Positions 2,699 to 12,649 of a DNA stretch of 64,000 nucleotides are shown here, one piece after another. A program made the position numbers and the translations under genes. This DNA is from Pseudomonas sp. MWU16-30317 (GTDB lineage Bacteria > Pseudomonadota > Gammaproteobacteria > Pseudomonadales > Pseudomonadaceae): the NCBI RefSeq assembly GCF_020515695.1, contig NZ_JAIWJA010000008.1, positions 186,001 to 250,000 on the forward strand. The letters are read 5' to 3'. Under the pieces are notes generated by a model. The model was not told the origin of the DNA and searched no databases. It was given only the letters and a program-made list of their open reading frames with translations. Position 1 is the stretch's first letter. Each line of letters starts with the position of its first letter.

Positions 2699-4381
2699 TC
2701 AGGCGGTGGCCTTCTGGGCTTTGGTTTCGCTATTGGGCGGACCGGCGAACTGGGTGGCAAAGTTGCCCACAGCCAGCATGTCCACTTCCAGCAGGAAAGG
2801 GCCCGGCTGACCGAATGCGCTGTCCAGCACGGCGCTGAAATCCTTGAGATCGCTGACCAAGCCGTGGCGGATACCCATGGATTCGGCCAACTGGGTGTAG
2901 TCCGGGGTGTGCAGCTCGACGTAGGCATGGCGGGCGCCGTAGATAGCGTCCTGGATGTTGCGGATCACGCCATAACGTTGATCGTTCATCAACAGGATCA
3001 CGACGTTGGCCTTTTCCTGTACCAAGGTCGCCAGCTCACCGAGATTGAGGATGAAACCGCCGTCGCCGGCCAGCGCGAAGACTTTGCGTTGGGAGTCGTA
3101 CTCGGCCGCTGCGATACCCGCACCGATGCCCATGGCCAAGCCTTGCCCAATGCCGCCGCCCAGCGCATGCACGCCGGCTCGCGGGTGATACAGGTTGAGC
3201 AGGCGGTTGCCCCAGATGCTGTTGGACAGCGTCACGTCGCGCACCCAGCTGAAGTTGCGCCCGGTCGCGGCTTGCAGTTGCTCGACCATGGCCGCGTACG
3301 GGCCCAGATCAGCCACGAGGGCGGCCCGGGACTTGGTCCGTACCTCCTTGAGTTGCGTGAAGAACTGCGGGTCGGTCTGCAGGCGACCTTCGAGGCGGTC
3401 GGCCAGTGCATCGAGGGTCAGCGTGGCATCACCGCAGACGAACAGGGCGCTGGAGTAGCTGCGGCCTTCGATCGCCGGGTTGGCGTCGATGCGCAGGGTG
3501 TTTTCAGGGAGCTTGAGCGCGTACTTGAACGTCTCGTTGCTGCGCAGGCGCGAGCCGGCGATCAGCAGCGCGTCGCAACTTTGCATGAAGGTTTCTACCA
3601 GGCGGTTCTGGGAGAACGCACCCAAACAACGCTCGTCGTCTTCGTTGACCACGCCGCGCCCTTGAGTCGACGTGATCACGCCCACGCCCATGTCCATCAG
3701 GCGCTTGACTGCCTTGCCGGCATGGCGGGCGCCACCGCCGAGCCACAGCAGTGGCCGCTTGGCCAGGAGCATACGTTCGGCCAGTTGCTCCAGCGCTTCG
3801 CGCGCAGGCGCAGCGACGGGCACCGGTAGCGGGGCGAGGTCGGTAGGCATGGTGATGAAGGTCGACTGGATATCGATCGGGATTTCCACACTGACCGGGC
3901 CCGTGGGCGCGGTCAGGGCCGTCTGCACGGCAAGCTTCAGCGTGCTCAGCGCGGTCTCGACGCTGCGCACCCGAAAGGCCGCCTTGGACACGGCCTTGAG
4001 CATGGTCAACTGGTCACGGGCTTCGTGGATGTAGGCGAATTCCTGATCCAGGTACGCCGTTTCGATCTGGCCGGTAATGTGCAGCACAGGCGTGCCCGCG
4101 GTGAGTGCCTCGACCATGGCGCCCGCAGCATTGCCGGCGGCGGTGCCGGTAGACGTCAGGCACACGCCCAGGCCACCGCTGGTGCGGGCATAGGCGTCGG
4201 CCATGTTGGTGGCGCCGGCTTCACCGCGGGCCATCACGAAGCGGATATTGCCGCGCACGGCGAAGGCATCGAGAATCGGCATGTTGTGAATCGAGATCAC
4301 GCCGAACGCGGCCTTCACGTCGCACTGTTCGAGAAAGGCGGTGATAGCAGCGCCCACGGTCACTTGGTTGTCATTACGCAT
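2699..4381 (-). CDS. Thiamine-diphosphate-dependent enzyme (acetolactate synthase/decarboxylase-like)
   Basis: A 560-residue protein with the three-domain layout of POX/AHAS-type ThDP enzymes: an N-terminal pyrimidine-binding domain with the activating glutamate in ARGEAGATNMADAYAR (E54), a central Rossmann-like domain (about 190-330), and a C-terminal pyrophosphate domain with the GDG...N motif (GDGG at 439-442, N466). Such enzymes decarboxylate or ligate 2-oxo acids. No regulatory subunit gene is nearby, which argues against a true acetolactate synthase. It overlaps the preceding SDR reading frame by 8 bases and precedes the aspartate-dehydrogenase-like gene by 10. A 2-oxo acid decarboxylase feeding the aldehyde dehydrogenase is the simplest reading. 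Confidence 0.9.
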   Translation of the reverse strand: MRNDNQVTVGAAITAFLEQCDVKAAFGVISIHNMPILDAFAVRGNIRFVMARGEAGATNMADAYARTSGGLGVCLTSTGTAAGNAAGAMVEALTAGTPVLHITGQIETAYLDQEFAYIHEARDQLTMLKAVSKAAFRVRSVETALSTLKLAVQTALTAPTGPVSVEIPIDIQSTFITMPTDLAPLPVPVAAPAREALEQLAERMLLAKRPLLWLGGGARHAGKAVKRLMDMGVGVITSTQGRGVVNEDDERCLGAFSQNRLVETFMQSCDALLIAGSRLRSNETFKYALKLPENTLRIDANPAIEGRSYSSALFVCGDATLTLDALADRLEGRLQTDPQFFTQLKEVRTKSRAALVADLGPYAAMVEQLQAATGRNFSWVRDVTLSNSIWGNRLLNLYHPRAGVHALGGGIGQGLAMGIGAGIAAAEYDSQRKVFALAGDGGFILNLGELATLVQEKANVVILLMNDQRYGVIRNIQDAIYGARHAYVELHTPDYTQLAESMGIRHGLVSDLKDFSAVLDSAFGQPGPFLLEVDMLAVGNFATQFAGPPNSETKAQKATA

Positions 4382-5171
4382 GGCGGGACAGGCCTCCGGA
4401 AACGTCGATATGGCTGCCTGTGGTGTAAGCCGACAGGGGTGATGCCAGGAAAAGAATTGCCTGTGCCGCTTCGATAGGCAGGCCCAGACGGGCTAGGGGA
4501 ATCTGTTTGCGCGCGGCCAGTTGCGCGGTCCATTGCGGCCAGTCCAGCGAACGTTCTTCGCGGGCCTCGAAGCGCCGGCGCCATTGCCCGGATTCCACCA
4601 GGCCGATGAGAATGCCGTTGACGCGAATCTGTTTCGGGGCGAACTCGAAGGCCATGGAACGCACCAGGTTCTTGAGCCCGGCGCGGGCTGCCGAGGTGGC
4701 GACCATGTGCGGTTCCGGCTGGCTGGCCAGCAGCGAGTTGACGCAGACGATGGCGGCGTTCTTGCAGCGTTCGAGCTGAGGCACAAAGGCCCGTACGGGG
4801 TAGATGACCGAGAAGAACTTGAGGTTGAGCTCTTCGCTCCAGGCCTCGTCGGTGGTGTCGGCAAAGGTCGATACGCGCCCTTAACCGGCGTTGTTGATCA
4901 GTACCTGGGCCGGGCCGAAGGCCTCCAGGCTGGCGGCGGCAAAGGCCTGCACCGAGGCGGCGTCGAGCACGTCGCAAGGCCGGGCCAGCAGGCGGCCCGC
5001 CGGGAAACGCTCACGTAGCTGGCGCTCAGCGTTGCGCAGGCGTTGCTCGTTACGGCCACAGAACGCCACGGCGGCGCCGGCTTCGAGCAGCAGCTCGACG
5101 CACGCCAGGCCGATGCCTGACGAGCCGCCGGTGACGATAGCAGTGCTGCCCTGGAGTGGATAAAGGCTCAT
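4374..5171 (-). pseudogene. SDR-family oxidoreductase interrupted by an in-frame TAA
   Basis: Codons 1-96 (start 5171) encode a Rossmann half with GGSSGIG (15-21) and LINNAG (91-96). An in-frame TAA at 4881-4883 follows, and the same frame then continues open to 4374, so no bases were gained or lost. After the stop the protein resumes as GRVSTFADTTDEAWSEELNL and ends GSHIDVSGGL, a normal SDR C-terminus; the whole would be 265 residues. The stop is one C-to-T change from CAA (Gln). The usual catalytic YxxxK is absent: the aligned stretch is PHMVATSAARAGL, so this SDR branch was non-canonical anyway. It lies within the operon, 1 base after the IclR gene. Real nonsense mutation, recoding or base-call error cannot be told apart here. 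Confidence 0.8.
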
Positions 5172-5172
5172 T

Positions 5173-5994
5173 TCAGTCTCTCATCAGCGCGGTGACGCGG
5201 CTGCCATGGCTGGGGGTGTAATTGAGCAAACGCGAAAGCTCGTCGGCGCTGCGACGCACTTGGCCGAGCAGTTCTTCGAAGTTGACGTGGCCGATCTGCG
5301 TGGTTGGGATGGTTACGCCCAGCGCTGCGACGATGCGTGCGGAGTGATCGCGCACCGGCGCGGCGACGGTAGAGATGGCCGACTCAAAAAAGCCTTCGCC
5401 GCTGACGAAGCCGCGCTCGCGGTCGTGCTGCACCAGATCGAACAGCTCCAGCACGGTCTTGGGCGTGCAGTGCGAGTGCTGTTCCAGGTGTTCTTCGGGG
5501 TACAACTCGCGCAGTTCGGCCAGGGACAGGTCTTCGAGCAGGATGCGCCCCAGCACGGTGGCATGGGCGGGCAGGCGTGTGCCGACGTTGACCGCGCTGG
5601 AGAACACCGAGGGCGGCGAGACTTTGGCAACGTAGACGATCGAGCGACCATCGCGCACCACCAGATTGCTCGGGTAGTTGAGCTTGTCGCACAGCCGCGC
5701 CAGCAAGGGTTGGCCCAGCTCGGTCAACTCCAGCGAAGCCAGGTACTCGAAGCCCAGGCGCAACACCGACATGCCCAGGCGGTATTCGTTGCCCTTGCGG
5801 GTGACGAAGCCCATGGTCTCCAGGGTGGTGAGCAGGCGGAAGATGGTCGAGCGCGGCAGCTCCAGGCGACGCGCCAGTTCCGGGGCAGTGAGGGTACGGT
5901 TCTGGCGAGTGAATTCGCACAGCAGCAACAGGCCGCGCTCCAGCCCGGGAACGATGTATTTATCCTGCGAATCCTTCAGATCGGAGTCATTCAT
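5173..5994 (-). CDS. IclR-family transcriptional regulator
   Basis: A 273-residue protein with an N-terminal winged helix-turn-helix (about 17-75: VPGLERGLLLLCEF, LTAPELARRLELPRSTIFRLL) and a C-terminal IclR effector-binding domain (about 85-260; GTRLPAHATVLGR, GEGFFESAISTVAAPV). The start at 5994 has AGGAAG upstream and overlaps the stop of the hydrolase gene as ATGA, so it is translationally coupled. IclR proteins bind a small pathway metabolite and a palindromic operator. As the only regulator in this operon it most likely controls the promoter before 10897, where two AT-rich palindromes occur. Being co-transcribed, it would autoregulate. Confidence 0.92.
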   Translation of the reverse strand: MNDSDLKDSQDKYIVPGLERGLLLLCEFTRQNRTLTAPELARRLELPRSTIFRLLTTLETMGFVTRKGNEYRLGMSVLRLGFEYLASLELTELGQPLLARLCDKLNYPSNLVVRDGRSIVYVAKVSPPSVFSSAVNVGTRLPAHATVLGRILLEDLSLAELRELYPEEHLEQHSHCTPKTVLELFDLVQHDRERGFVSGEGFFESAISTVAAPVRDHSARIVAALGVTIPTTQIGHVNFEELLGQVRRSADELSRLLNYTPSHGSRVTALMRD

Positions 5995-6866
5995 TGGACA
6001 CTTCCTGGCAGTGATTCCTTGAGGGCGAAGGCCAGTCGGCCTGCCACCAGATGAGGTTGTTCGATCGGGCTGGCATGCCCGGCATCGGGGATCAGGGTGA
6101 AGGGCGCCCCCAGCGCCTTGGCCAGCGTCAGGCAGGCTTCGGGGGCGGTGATCCCGTCCGCTTCGCCGCAATGCACTTCACAGGGCACCGCCAGCGGGGT
6201 GTGATCTAGCAGGTCAGCGCCACACAGCAGCTCGATGGCCTGGCGATAACCGTGAGCATTGAGGCGCGACATGTTCCAGCGCACCCATTCCAGCGCCTTG
6301 ACGCTTGGGCGGGGCGAGAGCATGGCGGCGCTGCGCTGGGCGGCCATCTGCGCAATGCCCAGTTGTTCGAGCGCACTGAGGCGCTTGCTGCGCACTTGTT
6401 GACGTTGGGTCTCGCGAGCCGGGTCGCCATAGCCCCGCGCCGGGCTAATCAGCACCAGGCGGCGCACCCGCTGCGGATACAGGCGGGCAAAGGCGGCGGC
6501 CGTGATGGCGCCCAGCGAGTGGCCGACCAGCAAGCAATCGTCGATGCCCAAGGCGTCGAGGGTGGCGACCAGCCGGTCGGCGTAATCCTCGGCACTCGGG
6601 GCGGCGAACGACAACGGTGTCGAGTCGCCATAACCTGGGGCATCCCAGGCCACTACGCGGGCCTCTTGGCGCAGCTGCAGGGCGACTTCCAGCCACGACC
6701 CGGCGCCCGAGCCAATACCGTGCAACAGCACCACGGCGCCGCCGGTGCCGGTTTCGCGAACGGCTTGACGGCTGTTATCGAGCACCAGGGTGCGTTGTAC
6801 GAAGTGCTGGGCGAGCAGTGCCTCGAGTTCGGCAACCGGGCTGGCGGTGTGGGTGGCTGGCAACAT
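5991..6866 (-). CDS. Alpha/beta-fold hydrolase
   Basis: A 291-residue protein with the standard alpha/beta hydrolase elements: oxyanion-hole LLHGIG (HG at 49-50), nucleophile elbow GHSLG (S117), acid in CGEADGITAPE and a late DAGHASPIEQP histidine. No signal peptide is visible, so it should act in the cytoplasm on an ester, lactone or C-C bond (MhpC-like enzymes share this layout). It follows the cupin gene by 4 bases and overlaps the IclR start. In a degradative operon with a VOC protein and a cupin it may hydrolyse a ring-cleavage product, but that is inference. Confidence 0.9.
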   Translation of the reverse strand: MLPATHTASPVAELEALLAQHFVQRTLVLDNSRQAVRETGTGGAVVLLHGIGSGAGSWLEVALQLRQEARVVAWDAPGYGDSTPLSFAAPSAEDYADRLVATLDALGIDDCLLVGHSLGAITAAAFARLYPQRVRRLVLISPARGYGDPARETQRQQVRSKRLSALEQLGIAQMAAQRSAAMLSPRPSVKALEWVRWNMSRLNAHGYRQAIELLCGADLLDHTPLAVPCEVHCGEADGITAPEACLTLAKALGAPFTLIPDAGHASPIEQPHLVAGRLAFALKESLPGSVQ

Positions 6867-6870
6867 GGGC

Positions 6871-7410
6871 TTATCCGCGCTTGACCGAGGCCAGAGGGTG
6901 CTCTGGCGGATAGGTCGGAGTGACCGGTTTTTTCGCGCCGAGCATCACGCACATCAAGGCATCTTCGTCGCCGATGTTGATCTCCTCGCGGTAAACGCCG
7001 GGTGGTACGGAAATCACGTCGCGGTCAGTGAGAATGGTCTCGTAGCGTTCACCGTCCTTCTCGATTACCACCTTGAGTTTGCCGCGCAGTACGAAGAACA
7101 CTTCTTCGACGTCGGTGTGCAGGTGTGGCGGACCTTCGTGGCCGGCAGGGATAACCATGGTGCTGAAGGTGAAGTTTTCCGAGGGAATGGTGTTCATGTC
7201 GGTGCTGACGCCGGTGCCGCCCGTGCCGATATAGCGCATCTGTGCGCGACGGTATTTAGGGTCGAAGTCGGCTTGGAACTTGAGCGCGTTCCAGTCGTAT
7301 TTGCGGGTCTGGTAACGGGCGACGCGGGTCTGCATCCATGCCTCGAGGCTGGCGCCTTCAGGGCGCTCCCAGCTTTTCGGGGCTTCGGTGGTGGTGGACA
7401 GGTCAGTCAT
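6871..7410 (-). CDS. Cupin-domain protein
   Basis: A 179-residue protein with one clear cupin barrel in its C-terminal half. Motif 1 is GHEGPPHLHTDVEEVFFVLRG, with His/His/Glu metal ligands in PPHLHTDVEE. Motif 2 is weaker, around DRDVISVPPGVYREEIN, so the last metal histidine may be missing. The N-terminal 60 residues are charged and not recognised. The start at 7410 (MTDLS) is preferred, with GGAGA upstream; ATGs at 7422 and 7428 are alternatives. Cupins near hydrolases and VOC proteins are often dioxygenases or isomerases, but a small-molecule-binding role is equally possible. Confidence 0.85.
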   Translation of the reverse strand: MTDLSTTTEAPKSWERPEGASLEAWMQTRVARYQTRKYDWNALKFQADFDPKYRRAQMRYIGTGGTGVSTDMNTIPSENFTFSTMVIPAGHEGPPHLHTDVEEVFFVLRGKLKVVIEKDGERYETILTDRDVISVPPGVYREEINIGDEDALMCVMLGAKKPVTPTYPPEHPLASVKRG

Positions 7411-7444
7411 GGCGGTCTCCATTTTCATTCGATTCAACAAGGGT

Positions 7445-8209
7445 TCAGGGCATGACGAACCCGCCGTTGACCGGCAGGGTTTGTCCAGTGATGAAGCGGG
7501 CCAGGTTGGACAGGGCGAACACCACCGCGCCGCTGACGTCCTCGGGTAACTGTGCGCGTTGGATGGCGCGTTGCTCGGTGTACTGGCGGTGGCGCGCCTC
7601 GGGCACGTAGGCGGTGGCTTCCACCAGTACCAGGCCGGGCGCAATGGCATTGACGGTAATGTTGTCGACGCCCAGTTCACGGGCCAGGCTGCGGGTCATG
7701 GCGATGATCGCGCCCTTGCTGGCGACATAGGCCAGCAGGTTGGGGGCGCCCCACAGCGGGGTGTCGGAGGCCAGGTTGACGATGGCGCCTTGGCCGCTGT
7801 GGCGCAGTGCTGGCAGGCACGCGGTGGTCATGAGCCACGTGCCGCGAACGTTGACCTGCATGACCTGATCCCAGGTATCGATGCTCAGCGCTTCGCAGGA
7901 TTTACCGCCAGAGTTGGTCACCGACGCGTTGTTGACCAGGCCGTCGAGGCCGCCCAGGCGTTCGCTGGCTTGGTCGGCGCAGCGCTGGATGGACAGCGGA
8001 TCGGCCAGATCGACGCTCAGGCCGCTGACGTCCAGGCCCAAGGCCTGTAGGTCGGCAGCGGCCTGCTGGACGCGCTCGGCGAGGATATCGGCGATGACTA
8101 CACGCCCGCCGGCTTCGGCGATAGCTTGGGCGAAGGCATAGCCCAGGCCGCGCGCGCCACCGGTGACCAGCACGCGGCGACCTTGCAACAGTGGATTCGA
8201 AGGGTTCAT
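7445..8209 (-). CDS. SDR-family NAD(P)-dependent oxidoreductase
   Basis: A 254-residue classical short-chain dehydrogenase: TGGARGLG cofactor loop (17-24), LVNNASV, and a catalytic Ser with YVASK (the usual Tyr-Lys pair), ending TGQTLPVNGGFVMP. Unlike the interrupted SDR at 4374-5171, all catalytic residues are present. The start codon overlaps the stop of the ABC permease gene at 8209 (TGATG). It should reduce a carbonyl or oxidise an alcohol intermediate of the operon's pathway; the substrate is unknown. Confidence 0.92.
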   Translation of the reverse strand: MNPSNPLLQGRRVLVTGGARGLGYAFAQAIAEAGGRVVIADILAERVQQAAADLQALGLDVSGLSVDLADPLSIQRCADQASERLGGLDGLVNNASVTNSGGKSCEALSIDTWDQVMQVNVRGTWLMTTACLPALRHSGQGAIVNLASDTPLWGAPNLLAYVASKGAIIAMTRSLARELGVDNITVNAIAPGLVLVEATAYVPEARHRQYTEQRAIQRAQLPEDVSGAVVFALSNLARFITGQTLPVNGGFVMP

Positions 8210-8988
8210 CAGTTGGTACTCAGCATGGCTTTGGGCATGTAATGCAGGACGCGCTTCTCGGCCCAGACCACCGCGCCATAGGCCAGCACGCCGATCAGAG
8301 TGAGCATGACGATGGCCACGAACACACCGGCGGTGTTGCCTTGGCCTTCAGCGTCCACGAGCAGAAAGCCCAGGCCCTGGTTACCGCCGACCAGCTCGCC
8401 GACGGTTACGCCGATGACGGCCAGGGTCGAGGCGATGCGCAAGCCGGAGAACAGCGCGGCCATCGCCGAAGGGAATTCCACCAAGCGGAAAATCTGCCAG
8501 CGGCTGGCGTTCATGGTGCGCACCAGGTTGATCATGTCCGGGTCCACGGTTCGGATTGCCGAGAGCACGTTGATCATCACCGGGAAGAACACGATCAGCA
8601 CCGCGATCAGGATCTTGGGGTACACGGTGTAGCCCAGCCACATCACGAACAGCGGAGCGAACGCCACTTTTGGCGCAATCTGCAGCGCCAGGATGTACGG
8701 CGAGAGCATGGCTTCGGCTTTGGGCGAGAGGCCCAGGGAGGTGCCGATCAACACCCCCAGCAAGCCGCCGAGGGCAAAACCCACGACGATCTCCACGGCG
8801 GTGATCAGGGTGTGTTGCAGCAGGTTGCTGGTGCTCCACATCAGCACGCCTTCCTGCGCCACTCGGCTCAGGTTGGGCATGACGAATTCAGGCATGCCGA
8901 GCAGGCCTGGGCCCCATTGCCACAGGGCGAGAAACAGGATCAGCAGAGCAACGCTGCCGAACATCGAGTTGTTGAGGCTTTTCATCAC
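8209..8988 (-). CDS. ABC transporter permease, nitrate/sulfonate/taurine type
   Basis: A 259-residue inner-membrane protein with about six hydrophobic segments (first SVALLILFLALWQW) and the BPD_transp_1 EAA-loop region around FSGLRIASTLAVIGVTVGELVG. It resembles SsuC/TauC/ThiX permeases in length and pattern. It follows the binding-protein gene by 31 bases and overlaps the next SDR gene by one base. With the ATPase (10049-10897) and binding protein (9020-10006) it forms a complete importer for the substrate of this operon. Confidence 0.92.
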   Translation of the reverse strand: MMKSLNNSMFGSVALLILFLALWQWGPGLLGMPEFVMPNLSRVAQEGVLMWSTSNLLQHTLITAVEIVVGFALGGLLGVLIGTSLGLSPKAEAMLSPYILALQIAPKVAFAPLFVMWLGYTVYPKILIAVLIVFFPVMINVLSAIRTVDPDMINLVRTMNASRWQIFRLVEFPSAMAALFSGLRIASTLAVIGVTVGELVGGNQGLGFLLVDAEGQGNTAGVFVAIVMLTLIGVLAYGAVVWAEKRVLHYMPKAMLSTN

Positions 8989-9019: not shown

Positions 9020-10006
9020 TTACTTGGCGGCAGTGGTGGTGTCGATGAACTGGTTGGTGTAGAGGTCTTCGAGCTTGGGCTCCTTGCTGACGATGCCTTC
9101 GCTCACGTAGAACTGGCGGACTTTTTCCAGGCGTTGCGGGTCGATGCGACCGAGTACGGTCTGCTGCGCGTAAACGTGCTCGATATAGAGTTTGAAAGTC
9201 TTCTCCAGCTGCGCTTCCTTGCCGGCGTAGCTAGGCACGGCCTTGGCGAACGTCGCAGCGGCAGCATGGGGGTCGGCAATGATGTCGCGCATGCCCTGCA
9301 GCGTCGCCTGGACTACGCCCCGGACGATCTCCGGGTGATTGTCGATAGCGTCATCGGACGCCATGATCGATTGCGCCATGCTTTCGAACACTTGGTCCTG
9401 GGGGATCAGCGTGACGTCCAGGCCTGCCTCCTGGGAATCGGTGACCCAGTCTGGGACGCCTGCCATGGCGGCGGCTTTCTTGGCGGCAAAAAGCTGCCAG
9501 ACACCCGCAGGCCCGGCGGCCTGGATGTTGACGTCGTTCTTGTCCAGGCCGGCTTTGCGCAGGGTCGCGAGGAGGGCGTAATAGGTGGTGTCGGAGTACG
9601 ACATTACGGTGAGAGTCTTGCCCTTGAGGTCCTTCACCGAGGTGATGTTTTCGTCGGCGTTGGTGGCAATCATTGTTACCCCGCCGGCACCTAGTACCGC
9701 CACGTCGCGTACCGGAATACCGTTGGCGCGGACCACGATCGGGGTATCGCCGATGGCCCCGCCGATCAATGCATTGCCAGCGCCGATCTGCTTGGCGACG
9801 TCGACCCCGCCCTTGGCCGCAATGAACGTGACGTTCAGGTCCTTGCTGGCGTAGTAGCCCTTTTCCTTGGCGATGATCCATGGCGCGAATGCCGCGGAGT
9901 TGGGCGGAGCGGGCAACAGATAGGTGACGTCAGTGGCGGCATGGGCGCCCAATGCGAAACTCAGGCCAAGAGCGGCCGACGCGGTCATGACAGCGGACTT
10001 GAACAT
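9020..10006 (-). CDS. ABC transporter substrate-binding protein (SsuA/ThiY-like)
   Basis: A 328-residue periplasmic protein. The first 23 residues (MFKSAVMTASAALGLSFALG...AHA) form a Sec signal peptide with an AHA cleavage site. The mature part has the NMT1/OpuAC-type fold (AFAPWIIAKEKGYYASKDLNVTFI, then KGGVDVAKQIGAGNALIGGAIGD). Proteins of this type bind nitrate, alkanesulfonates, taurine or thiamine precursors, and also many aromatic or heterocyclic acids, so ligand prediction is weak. It lies between the cognate ATPase and permease genes. Confidence 0.92.
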   Translation of the reverse strand: MFKSAVMTASAALGLSFALGAHAATDVTYLLPAPPNSAAFAPWIIAKEKGYYASKDLNVTFIAAKGGVDVAKQIGAGNALIGGAIGDTPIVVRANGIPVRDVAVLGAGGVTMIATNADENITSVKDLKGKTLTVMSYSDTTYYALLATLRKAGLDKNDVNIQAAGPAGVWQLFAAKKAAAMAGVPDWVTDSQEAGLDVTLIPQDQVFESMAQSIMASDDAIDNHPEIVRGVVQATLQGMRDIIADPHAAAATFAKAVPSYAGKEAQLEKTFKLYIEHVYAQQTVLGRIDPQRLEKVRQFYVSEGIVSKEPKLEDLYTNQFIDTTTAAK

Positions 10007-10048: not shown

Positions 10049-10897
10049 TCAATGCAGATCGGTGTCTTCGCCAACTTTGAGCAGCGCCATCAGGCGGCCG
10101 GCCAGCGGGCCGATTTCGGCGAGCTTGCGACGTTCCAAGGGGTTGTCGCGGTAGGGCAGATCGACGACGATTTCTTCGATGATGGTGCCGGGCCTCGCGC
10201 TCATCACCAGAAGGCGGTCGGACATGGCAATGGCCTCTACCAGGTCGTGGGTGATGAACAGGGCGGTCTTCTTTTCCTCGAACAGCATGCGGGCCATGTC
10301 TTGCTGCAGGATCATCTTGGTCTGGGCATCGAGGGCCGAGAACGGCTCGTCGAGAAACAGTACTTGGGGGTCCATGGCCAAGGTGCGTGCCAAGGCTGCG
10401 CGTTGGCGCATCCCGCCCGACAGCTGAAACGGATAGTGGTCCGCGAAGCCCTGCAGGTGGCACCGATCGAGCAGGTCTTCAGCGATGCAGCGGCGCTCGG
10501 CGGCGGCCATGCCTTGGATTTCAAGGCCCAACTCGACGTTTTGACGAATGCTACGCCACGGCATTAGCAGGTCCTTCTGCAGCATGAACGCGACCTTCTT
10601 CACCGGGCCGTCGACGGCTTCGCCACCGACGAACACTTCGCCTTCGCTCGGCCGGTAGAGCCCCGAGCCCATGTTGAGGATGGTGCTTTTACCGCAGCCG
10701 GAAGGGCCGATGATCGACACCACTTCGCCGCGGGCGATGGTGAAGTTCACATCACGGATAGCAAATGGCGCATCGGCTTTACCTTTGCCCGGGAAGCTCT
10801 TGCCAACTTTGCGAAATTCAATTTCGGTCGGCTCGTTGGCCAGGCGACGGGCTTCTGTCCAGTCGGGGGCGATTGCAAACATCTCTTTGACAGCCAT
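10049..10897 (-). CDS. ABC transporter ATP-binding protein (SsuB/TauB-like)
   Basis: A 282-residue ATPase with Walker A GPSGCGKST (64-72), signature LSGGMRQR (159-166) and Walker B VLFLDEP (179-185), plus the switch histidine in FITHDLVEA. It powers uptake through the permease at 8209-8988. This is the first gene of the long minus-strand operon: upstream (10898-11172) lies a leader with two palindromic operator candidates, and downstream genes follow with gaps under 50 bases or overlaps. The N-terminal 30-residue extension before the ABC core is common in this subgroup. Confidence 0.94.
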   Translation of the reverse strand: MAVKEMFAIAPDWTEARRLANEPTEIEFRKVGKSFPGKGKADAPFAIRDVNFTIARGEVVSIIGPSGCGKSTILNMGSGLYRPSEGEVFVGGEAVDGPVKKVAFMLQKDLLMPWRSIRQNVELGLEIQGMAAAERRCIAEDLLDRCHLQGFADHYPFQLSGGMRQRAALARTLAMDPQVLFLDEPFSALDAQTKMILQQDMARMLFEEKKTALFITHDLVEAIAMSDRLLVMSARPGTIIEEIVVDLPYRDNPLERRKLAEIGPLAGRLMALLKVGEDTDLH

Positions 10898-11032
10898 TGG
10901 AAAGGTCTCTGGTCTGTTTTACTAGTGATACATCGGTTAGTGCATGAACAATGCCATGTGGATTTTAATCATCAATAATTAATAAAATCATTGATAATCA
11001 ATGGTTTGTATAAATCTATCAATCGCGGACAT

Positions 11033-11048
11033 GTTTTATATATAAAAC
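11033..11048. promoter_or_regulatory. Palindromic operator candidate, copy 1
   Basis: A perfect 16-base palindrome, GTTTTATATATAAAAC, whose flanks (AT left, GT right) no longer match. Its centre is about 99 bases from copy 2 at 11128-11151 and it lies just upstream of the putative -35 box. The IclR regulator of the operon is the obvious candidate to bind here. Confidence 0.55.
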
Positions 11049-11127
11049 GTTGTTTGTATTGTGATACGGCGCTGCACGTTCGCGGGCGTTGTTACCATTC
11101 GTGCGAGATAAGGGTGCTTTTATGGAA

Positions 11128-11151
11128 CACTGTTTTATATATAAAACAGTG
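11128..11151. promoter_or_regulatory. Palindromic operator candidate, copy 2
   Basis: A perfect 24-base palindrome: outer arms CACTG/CAGTG around the same TTTTATATATAAAA core as copy 1. Perfect symmetry over 24 bases and exact repetition of the core 99 bases away are unlikely by chance and fit a dimeric regulator binding two sites, perhaps with DNA looping. Which protein binds is inferred, not shown. Confidence 0.6.
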
Positions 11152-11172
11152 CCATGTAGATGAGTTTTGCGG

Positions 11173-12315
11173 TTATTGGGCTGAACCCGTCGAGACTTGC
11201 CACGCGTCGTAGCCATACACCCAGTCGGCATTGCCACCGGCCTTGAGCCATTGGTTGCCGCGCGAACCGATCTGGATCTGACTAGCGCGCGCCATCCGAG
11301 CGTTCTGGTAATCCCGCAGGGCGTAGCTCACCTGCTCGGTGGATTGCACTTCGTTGAGCGCTCGCGCCAGCACTACGGCGTCTTCGATTGCCTGGCCGGC
11401 ACCTTGGGCCATAAACGGCATCATCGGGTGGCACGCATCGCCCAGCAGCACCAGACGGCCCTCGGTCCAGTAGGGCAGCGGGTCGCGTTCATAGAGTGCG
11501 GTTTTCAAGACATCGTCGCAGGCGTCAAGTAAGGCGCGGGCGTCGGGGTGGAAGTCGGCATAACTGTCGCGTAGTTCGCTGACGCTACCAGGGGTGGTCC
11601 AACTCTCTTCGTGCCAGCTGTCCTGGGCGGTGGTGGCGAAGATAAAGATGTCATCGCCGCGGTTGAGGGGGAAGGTAACGATCTGGCTATGGGCCGTCGG
11701 GCCCCACCACTTGGTGAATGCCTGGATATTGGGCACGTGAGCCACGCGGCTGGCCGGCACCACGGCGCGGAACGCGACGACCCCGGTAAAGCGTGGGCTC
11801 TCCTTGCCAAACAGGGTATTGCGCACCACGGAGTGGATACCGTCGGCGCCGATCAGTACGTCCATCCTCGCTTGGCTGCCGTCGCTGAAGTGCAGCACTG
11901 CGCCGTCCGGGTCCTGACTGGCGGCGACGGCACGTTTGGAGAACTGAACCTGTTCCACTGCACAGGCATCGGCCAGCACGGTGAGCAGGTCAGCCCGATG
12001 GATAGTCAGCTGCGGCGCGCCGTATTGGCGTTCGGCAACGTCGGACATTTCCAGGCGGGAGGTTTCTTCGCCGGTGTCCCAGAGACGGCTGATACGGTGG
12101 GTCGGGCGCGCTGCGAAGCGGCGCACGCCCTGGCCGATACCTAAGCCGTCCAGTGCTTTGACGGCATTGGGCGTGAGGTTGATGTCGGCGCCGACGCGCA
12201 TGAATGCCTTGGCTTGTTCGTACACCGTGACCTGATGCCCTGCGCGTTGTAACGCGATAGCGGCGCACAGACCGCCAATACCGGCGCCGAGGATACCTAT
12301 GGAGAGTGCTTGCAT
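11173..12315 (-). CDS. FAD-dependent aromatic monooxygenase (6-hydroxynicotinate 3-monooxygenase/salicylate hydroxylase-like)
   Basis: A 380-residue group-A flavoprotein hydroxylase: N-terminal GxGxxG (GAGIGGLCAA), the DG motif VLIGADGIHS, and the GD motif RLVLLGDACHPMMPFMAQGAGQAIEDA. It hydroxylates an aromatic acid with NAD(P)H and O2. Length and the C-terminal WLKAGGN..WVYGYDAW recall NicC of Pseudomonas nicotinate degradation, but no other nic genes are present. The start at 12315 has GAGG six bases upstream. It is separated from the operon at 10897 by the operator region, so it probably has its own promoter while possibly serving the same pathway. Confidence 0.88.
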   Translation of the reverse strand: MQALSIGILGAGIGGLCAAIALQRAGHQVTVYEQAKAFMRVGADINLTPNAVKALDGLGIGQGVRRFAARPTHRISRLWDTGEETSRLEMSDVAERQYGAPQLTIHRADLLTVLADACAVEQVQFSKRAVAASQDPDGAVLHFSDGSQARMDVLIGADGIHSVVRNTLFGKESPRFTGVVAFRAVVPASRVAHVPNIQAFTKWWGPTAHSQIVTFPLNRGDDIFIFATTAQDSWHEESWTTPGSVSELRDSYADFHPDARALLDACDDVLKTALYERDPLPYWTEGRLVLLGDACHPMMPFMAQGAGQAIEDAVVLARALNEVQSTEQVSYALRDYQNARMARASQIQIGSRGNQWLKAGGNADWVYGYDAWQVSTGSAQ

Positions 12316-12347: not shown

Positions 12348-12369
12348 GTCTCATGCATGGGAAATGCCA

Positions 12370-12393: not shown

Positions 12394-12649
12394 AATATTA
12401 TTAAATTGAATCAATTAGTTATGAGTTTTTTACAGGTGAAACAGGTGGCCAAGGGCCCAAATTGCGCCAACGCGTAGCACGCTTGGGTCGCAGTGCTACT
12501 TTCCGTCACTTTTTTCGACAGGGTGGTGTGGGAACACGGTCTCCTGTCGCAGCCTGGATACGTCTGCCCAATCTACGCAGCGAGGACAGCCTTTGCCCTG
12601 GCCGGCTGGATACCTCTGAGCATCTATCCACTCGAACACAAGAACGTGG

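Follow-up and report, generated by a model that had tools for sequence, protein, structure and literature searches.

Two closely related palindromes stand in front of a nine-gene operon of Pseudomonas sp. MWU16-30317, and the question raised by this locus is which protein binds them and how they bear on transcription of the operon. The window, i.e. the whole stretch of DNA that was analysed (64,000 nucleotides), carries the operon on its minus strand, with the following genes.

10049..10897, minus strand: ABC transporter ATPase, first operon gene
9020..10006, minus strand: NMT1/SsuA-type substrate-binding protein
8209..8988, minus strand: ABC transporter permease
7445..8209, minus strand: short-chain dehydrogenase 1
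6871..7455, minus strand: cupin-domain protein (reading frame as searched)
5991..6866, minus strand: alpha/beta hydrolase, 3-oxoadipate enol-lactonase-like
5173..5994, minus strand: IclR-family regulator, seventh operon gene, proposed binder of the operators
4374-5171, minus strand: short-chain dehydrogenase 2, between the IclR gene and the ThDP enzyme gene
2699..4381, minus strand: ThDP-dependent enzyme, last operon gene tested

Both IclR domains of the regulator scored above cut-off (PF09339, the N-terminal HTH_IclR, and PF01614, the C-terminal IclR_C). The closest NCBIfam model was TIGR02431 (PcaR/PcaU/PobR) with 172.1 bits, under its cut-off of 284.75, and the regulator thus appears nearest to the PcaR/PcaU/PobR branch, a nearest-branch placement below the subfamily cut-off. 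Dehydrogenase 2 has one in-frame stop in the window, and its closest relatives gave full-length alignment at 91-94%; the stop would be either a recent loss or a sequencing error.

To compare the operon across genomes, a genome scan was performed with the ABC ATPase, and the best 80 loci of at least 519 relatives were taken. These best 80 were Pseudomonas-like or from Betaproteobacteria in nearly all cases. All nine operon genes were matched in 51 of them, some of the loci being short contigs. An IclR match (44-98% identical) was found in 72 of the best 80, and the remaining 8 stop short of the usual IclR position; an FAD-monooxygenase match was present in 6 of the 80. In one relative (L171, G051:C1:1074500-1078500) the binding-protein and permease genes were partly tandem-repeated inside the operon.

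Palindromic sites in the operon leader

An earlier note on this DNA described a perfect 24-bp palindrome and a 16-bp copy of its core, 99 bp apart in a 275-bp leader. Both palindromes were found as described, and the leader indeed measures 275 bp, from the FAD-monooxygenase stop (11173, minus strand) to the ATG of the ABC ATPase (10897, minus strand). The leader contains four predicted sites rather than two, two of them degenerate.

11128..11151, no strand assigned: predicted operator A, perfect 24-bp palindrome CACTGTTTTATATATAAAACAGTG, core 11132-11147, centre at about -210 relative to the predicted transcription start
11033..11048, no strand assigned: predicted operator B, GTTTTATATATAAAAC, a 16-bp copy of the A core, centre at about -110
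11052..11067, minus strand: predicted operator B', degenerate copy GTATCACAATACAAAC, 19 bp centre to centre from B
10916..10931, minus strand: predicted operator C, GTATCACTAGTAAAAC, spanning about -1 to +15 of the predicted start

The sequence is rare. With up to 2 mismatches to the 14-mer core, A and B were the sole matches in the 64-kb window (0.01 expected), and two such matches occurred in 0 of 100 shuffles. Genome-wide (6.58 Mb) the 14-mer core was found at the A and B places only. The genome search for the 16-base core, which the earlier note had named as a check, was run as well, and the exact 16-mer was absent outside A and B in the 6.58 Mb. Allowing up to 3 mismatches gave 8 places, consisting of the two exact ones (A and B) and 6 with 3 mismatches, and the reversed control pattern gave 6. 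The relaxed form GTTTYAYNNRTRAAAC with at most 1 mismatch matched 8 genome places, compared with 2 for its control, and 4 of these 8 fell within this 1.5-kb region (A, B, 10916-10931 and 12427-12442).

Conservation was examined in 33 Pseudomonas-group leaders, namely the window, L014-L043, L045 and L084; L044, which has a different arrangement, was left out. An A-like site (at most 2 mismatches to GTTTYAYNNRTRAAAC) was found in 31 of the 33 leaders. Site B (0-2 mismatches to GTTTYAYATATRAAAC) was present in 32, starting 151-155 bp before the ATG, and site C (at most 1 mismatch to GTWTCAYNNRTRAAAC) also in 32. Site B' has 5 mismatches in the window and 3-6 in 32 of the 33 leaders, at a fixed place. 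Within this set, L045 showed no recognisable B' and no good A or B, and a good site A was missing from L019. Mean column conservation over 32 aligned leaders was 0.92 for B, 0.96 for C, 0.83 for A and 0.86 for B', reached 1.0 in the sigma-54 box described below, and was 0.59 in the remaining leader columns.

AT-rich palindromes might also be functionless, as chance, cruciform or terminator-like DNA, and the low G+C of this region (0.46 in 10750-11249 vs about 0.62 in the surrounding genes) would suit such an origin. We find this hardly credible, since the 0.01 matches expected in the window and the conservation of B and A above the other leader columns both argue against it, as does the leader itself, where no terminator-like site was found.

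The GTTTYATATATRAAAC-like motif recurs upstream of the same operon across Pseudomonas and Betaproteobacteria. A scoring matrix built from Pseudomonas-group sites alone was run with a site threshold of 12 bits. All 21 leaders of L046-L066 carried a site, the shuffled mean being 0.4. For L067-L093 without L084 the count was 16 of 26 leaders, compared with a shuffled mean of 0.5; the other 10 of these 26 had no site of at least 12 bits. Pairs of sites 19 bp apart were also seen in L044, L046-L049, L057 and others, Herbaspirillum among them.

Promoter type and position of the sites

The sigma-54 consensus is GG-N10-GC, with TGGCAY and WTGCW as its two elements. A box of this type and a putative site for IHF lie between operator B and the ABC ATPase gene.

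10941..10956, minus strand: predicted sigma-54 -24/-12 box, TGGCATTGTTCATGCA, with the predicted start near 10930
10996..11008, plus strand: putative IHF-type site, AATCAATGGTTTG, exact to WATCAANNNNTTR, centre at about -72

The pattern TGGCAYN5WTGCW occurred with 0 mismatches in all 34 Pseudomonas-group leaders, compared with 0.1 in shuffles, and nearly always as TGGCATTGTTCATGCA. Among the other leaders, 8 of 47 had the exact box (0.05 expected), with constant -24/-12 elements and varying spacer letters. The exact box is missing from all 26 leaders of L067-L093, and the sigma-54 promoter type is therefore not general across the range of the operon; L056 and L062-L066 had no box within 2 mismatches. 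Since the 16 leaders of L067-L093 mentioned above nevertheless keep an operator, this suggests that the promoter type has switched while the regulator stayed the same.

WATCAANNNNTTR is the IHF consensus, and an IHF site between a sigma-54 enhancer and its promoter is frequent, not universal. It was exact in 3 of 34 leaders, the window included (0.1 by shuffling), and within 1 mismatch in 26 of 34 (3.35 in shuffles). A looser form, WATYAANNNNTTR, picked after the alignment had been viewed, was present with 1 mismatch in 32 of 34 against 9.65. On the forward strand the IHF scan gave 5 of 34 leaders vs 8.9 shuffled, and the other strand is the conserved one.

The earlier note had placed the palindromes just upstream of a plausible promoter. 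A sigma-70-like TTGATA-17-GATTAT (11022-10994) is present there, but its hexamers, compared by eye, are not retained in the aligned relatives; it was dropped as the conserved promoter, and the sigma-70 assignment is probably wrong. The region held two promoter-like matches, one per strand, vs 0.9 by chance. The same hexamers would be needed if the IclR protein were an activator of a sigma-70 promoter with its operators just upstream of the -35, in the manner of PcaU and PobR. The PcaR/PcaU/PobR branch includes activators, and PcaU and PobR activate at sigma-70 promoters. The regulator is nearest to this branch, and about 10 bp separate B from the sigma-70-like -35, which both speak for activation. 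We consider this improbable, as the unconserved hexamers compare with a sigma-54 box kept in 34 of 34 leaders, the number of promoter-like matches is to be read against its chance value, and C overlaps the predicted sigma-54 start.

With the predicted sigma-54 start as reference, the position of the sites could be compared among leaders. Site C starts 25 bp past the box start in 33 Pseudomonas-group leaders. Ten Herbaspirillum-type leaders (L046-L049, L051, L055, L057-L060) have an operator-like site that begins 29-31 bp past the box; some of these boxes have one mismatch and some of the sites reach just 12-13 bits. The distance was 17 bp in L044 and 21 bp in L061, and L050, L052, L053, L054 and L069 have their first operator 49-89 bp past the box. 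Where the box is present, a predicted operator thus usually covers the predicted transcription start. An operator in this place favours repression, and judged from site position only, the IclR protein would be a repressor.

The IclR protein as likely binder

The palindromes were proposed earlier to bind the IclR regulator of the operon. This can be judged by comparison between genomes, and it is well supported: the motif accompanies a stand-alone IclR gene in one genome (G499) and operons in which the ABC gene was not found, and its half-sites and 19-bp pairing fit known IclR sites. One feature fits less well, namely a centre of 2 bp and not 3-4.

We surveyed 249 genomes of the genus, out of a larger group, and searched 398 genomes of the phylum, likewise out of a larger group. 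Of the 249 genus genomes, 16 had the strict motif GTTTYAYATATRAAAC, 19 had an IclR orthologue (85-100% identical) and 14 had both (Fisher p 5e-17, relatedness of the genomes ignored). This co-occurrence is an association with the whole operon including IclR and not with IclR singly, because the IclR gene is part of the operon and the genomes surveyed are relatives of one another. In the two that have the motif only, G069 (L006) and G082 (L125), it stands in isolation, perfect or nearly so, and no operon gene among those tested lies within about 1.5 kb; these copies are probably due to chance. The five genomes with IclR only have weaker sites, of which four were read directly (L172-L175); the fifth, G051, was paired with L017, whose leader has GTTTCACCTATAAAAC.

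The motif persists where the other genes change, and this ties it to IclR. G499 has a stand-alone IclR homologue (L164/L178; 68% identical) preceded by an exact GTTTTATATATAAAAC, which lies 171 bp upstream of the aligned part of the gene and 125 bp clear of its probable ATG. The G499 and G569 operons (L178 and L179) have sites before the hydrolase gene, and the 20 kb fetched at each of these two loci yielded no ABC gene. In Oceanobacter (L061) the IclR gene lies ahead of the ABC gene, and a site pair stands about 280 bp upstream of the IclR gene, in a region perhaps shared with a divergent gene. The solo IclR at L165/L180 had no site at the threshold used. An IclR relative in G022 (56% identity) had no motif of 9 bits within 1.5 kb, and two sites, scoring 12.1 and 17.5 bits, are located 1.7-1.9 kb from it. 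As side observations, the operon versions at L178, L179, L181 and L182 are Betaproteobacteria-like; no ABC gene turned up in them, and some retain operators. G499, G569, G441 and G565 have two IclR matches each.

The sites were further compared with known IclR operators. According to the main text of Suvorova and Gelfand 2021 (PMC8222616), operators of IclR group 1 are of the GTT-11-AAC type with half-sites GTTYCRY/RYGRAAC, and form tandem palindromes with centres 18-22 bp apart and three or four central W bases. The sites described here resemble that account in their half-sites, in tandem pairing and in belonging to an aromatic and transport operon. The form GTTTCAT-AT-ATGAAAC of the relatives is an exact fit to the group-1 half-sites, and GTTTTATATATAAAAC of the window departs from them once per half (T for C, A for G). 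The B'-B distance of 19 bp falls in the group-1 tandem range, with B' being degenerate. The sites differ from the group-1 pattern given there in having two central A/T bases (GTT-10-AAC) in place of three or four, and in surrounding a sigma-54 promoter; the word 'sigma' is absent from that main text. PcaR/PcaU/PobR operators have another pattern, being GTNCG-N5-6-CGNAC where the sites here read GTTTCAT-ATATGAAAC.

Some other regulator, unlinked to the operon, might bind the palindromes while the IclR protein controls something else, and the operon-level co-occurrence, which cannot isolate IclR, leaves room for it. This is quite unlikely, because the motif accompanies IclR where the ABC gene was not found, and because the half-sites and the 19-bp pairing match IclR rules. 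The reading we prefer, and hold to be likely, is that the palindromes are operators of the operon-encoded IclR protein and, together with the weaker B' and C, are placed around a sigma-54 promoter with an IHF-type site. Of the four predicted IclR sites, A and B are most likely the strongest.

Proposed regulation and a second predicted promoter upstream

The sites and how well they are conserved, the -24/-12 box, and the association of the sites with the operon and with some IclR genes elsewhere were read directly from the DNA, and from them we infer a scheme of binding, of repression rather than activation, and of the parts that looping, an effector and an activator might play. Effector-free IclR protein would sit on C and block polymerase. 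It would also occupy B'/B and A, in the stretch expected to serve an RpoN enhancer-binding protein and its loop, and its sites might be bridged by tetramer contacts or by looping. Repression might come from a blocked polymerase, from competition with the activator, or from stiffening or looping of the DNA. The IclR protein would be released on binding a pathway compound, probably an aromatic one, and an unlinked RpoN activator would then fire the operon. Because the IclR gene lies inside its own operon, negative autoregulation would follow.

Sigma-54 promoters require an AAA+ activator, and the operon therefore probably needs a separate activator plus release from IclR. A PF00158 search of the genome gave 23 strong activator matches, none of which is on the contig of the window; this contig has two weak PF00158 matches (29 and 23 bits), both lying beyond the window. 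A search for an enhancer-binding-protein gene in 83 loci, 80 of which are homologous, and in 12 further regions found none, and as a control the same search recovered 23 of 23 known activator loci via other queries. Since none was found near the operon in these loci and regions, the RpoN activator is probably unlinked to it.

Enhancer-binding proteins bind or loop at upstream distances such as those of B'/B (about -110 to -130) and A (about -210) from sigma-54 promoters. The palindromes might accordingly be upstream activating sequences for such a protein and not IclR operators at all, and B/B' with an IHF-type site between them and the box have textbook placement. This was disfavoured on several grounds. 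In Herbaspirillum-type leaders the motif is found downstream of the box and not upstream, and C sits on the start site in Pseudomonas; in L067-L093 operators are kept in 16 of 26 leaders where the exact box is absent; the motif adjoins one stand-alone IclR gene; and no enhancer-binding-protein gene turned up in the loci and regions searched. We regard it as unlikely.

Looping had also been put forward in the earlier note. It is plausible, and the spacing of A and B weakly suggests it. The A-B distances in 31 leaders clustered in three bands (99-104, 111-115 and 123-127), no leader having an intermediate value, and the band changed about 6 times on the gene tree. The Rayleigh R for helical phasing was 0.64 at 10.5 bp in the 31 leaders and larger at 11-12 bp, periods besides 10.5 having been examined post hoc. 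After thinning to 23, 18 or 15 leaders p was 0.001 to 0.006, and this thinning always retains leaders that differ in spacing. The bands had been noticed ahead of the test and the sample is small, and helical phasing of the A-B spacing is suggestive.

Brunwasser-Meirom et al. 2016 (PMC4740811) describe, for synthetic enhancers and Vibrio qrr genes, that a repressor bound in the enhancer-promoter loop lowers sigma-54 firing, and that indels of 10-11 bp in the enhancer spacing are tolerated and those of 5-6 bp are not. The A-B bands resemble this indel rule as given there, and by analogy it may transfer to a natural operon. A conserved two-key switch can be imagined on this basis, in which IclR would repress an RpoN promoter from two places, the transcription start and the interior of the enhancer loop, while evolution would have preserved the helical register of the operators; we offer it as a tentative and rather doubtful extension.

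The main interest of the locus is the predicted conserved architecture that joins IclR and sigma-54. In the literature searched, from which subscription papers were largely absent, we recognised no description of IclR control joined with a sigma-54 promoter. If our reading is right, a catabolic operon of many Pseudomonas and Betaproteobacteria would be jointly controlled by IclR and RpoN in part of its range. It would also predict the palindrome of an uncharacterised IclR group, together with a sigma-54 start and the existence of a missing enhancer-binding protein, and would make natural leaders available in which to test the helical-phase rule for repression within sigma-54 enhancer loops.

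A similar set of elements was found before the FAD-monooxygenase gene upstream.

11173..12315, minus strand: FAD-dependent aromatic monooxygenase, likely start ATG 12315, downstream of its own sigma-54 box
12354..12369, minus strand: second predicted sigma-54 box, TGGCATTTCCCATGCA, before the FAD monooxygenase
12409..12421, plus strand: putative IHF-type site, AATCAATTAGTTA, centre at about -72 of the monooxygenase promoter, matched by eye to the consensus without a shuffle control
12427..12442, minus strand: operator-like site, GTTTCACCTGTAAAAA, 15.4 bits, before the FAD monooxygenase
12474..12499, no strand assigned: inverted repeat GTAGCAC-N12-GTGCTAC, candidate enhancer-protein site of the monooxygenase promoter

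The start at 12315 is the likely one because the box reaches the first ATG of the frame, at 12354. By eye, L014, L015 and L016 have the second box with one mismatch and GG-N10-GC intact. Weaker operator-like sites were seen there too (L014 10.3 bits, L016 13.8 bits, L015 by eye). The distance of the IHF-type site (-72) is equal at the monooxygenase and ABC promoters.

The inverted repeat may be where an enhancer-binding protein acts on the monooxygenase promoter. Its core is unique in the genome at 0 mismatches; with up to 2 mismatches it gave 86 genome places vs 266 for the control, which is uninformative. GCAC-N12-GTGC was also tried as an enhancer repeat in the ABC leaders and was not convincing, with 9 of 34 (one mismatch) vs 5.25 shuffled and 8 in the largest shuffle. 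The repeat was not clear in L015. GTAGCAC-N12-GTGCTAC is also present in L014, and L016 has a matching change in both arms (GTATCAC/GTGATAC).
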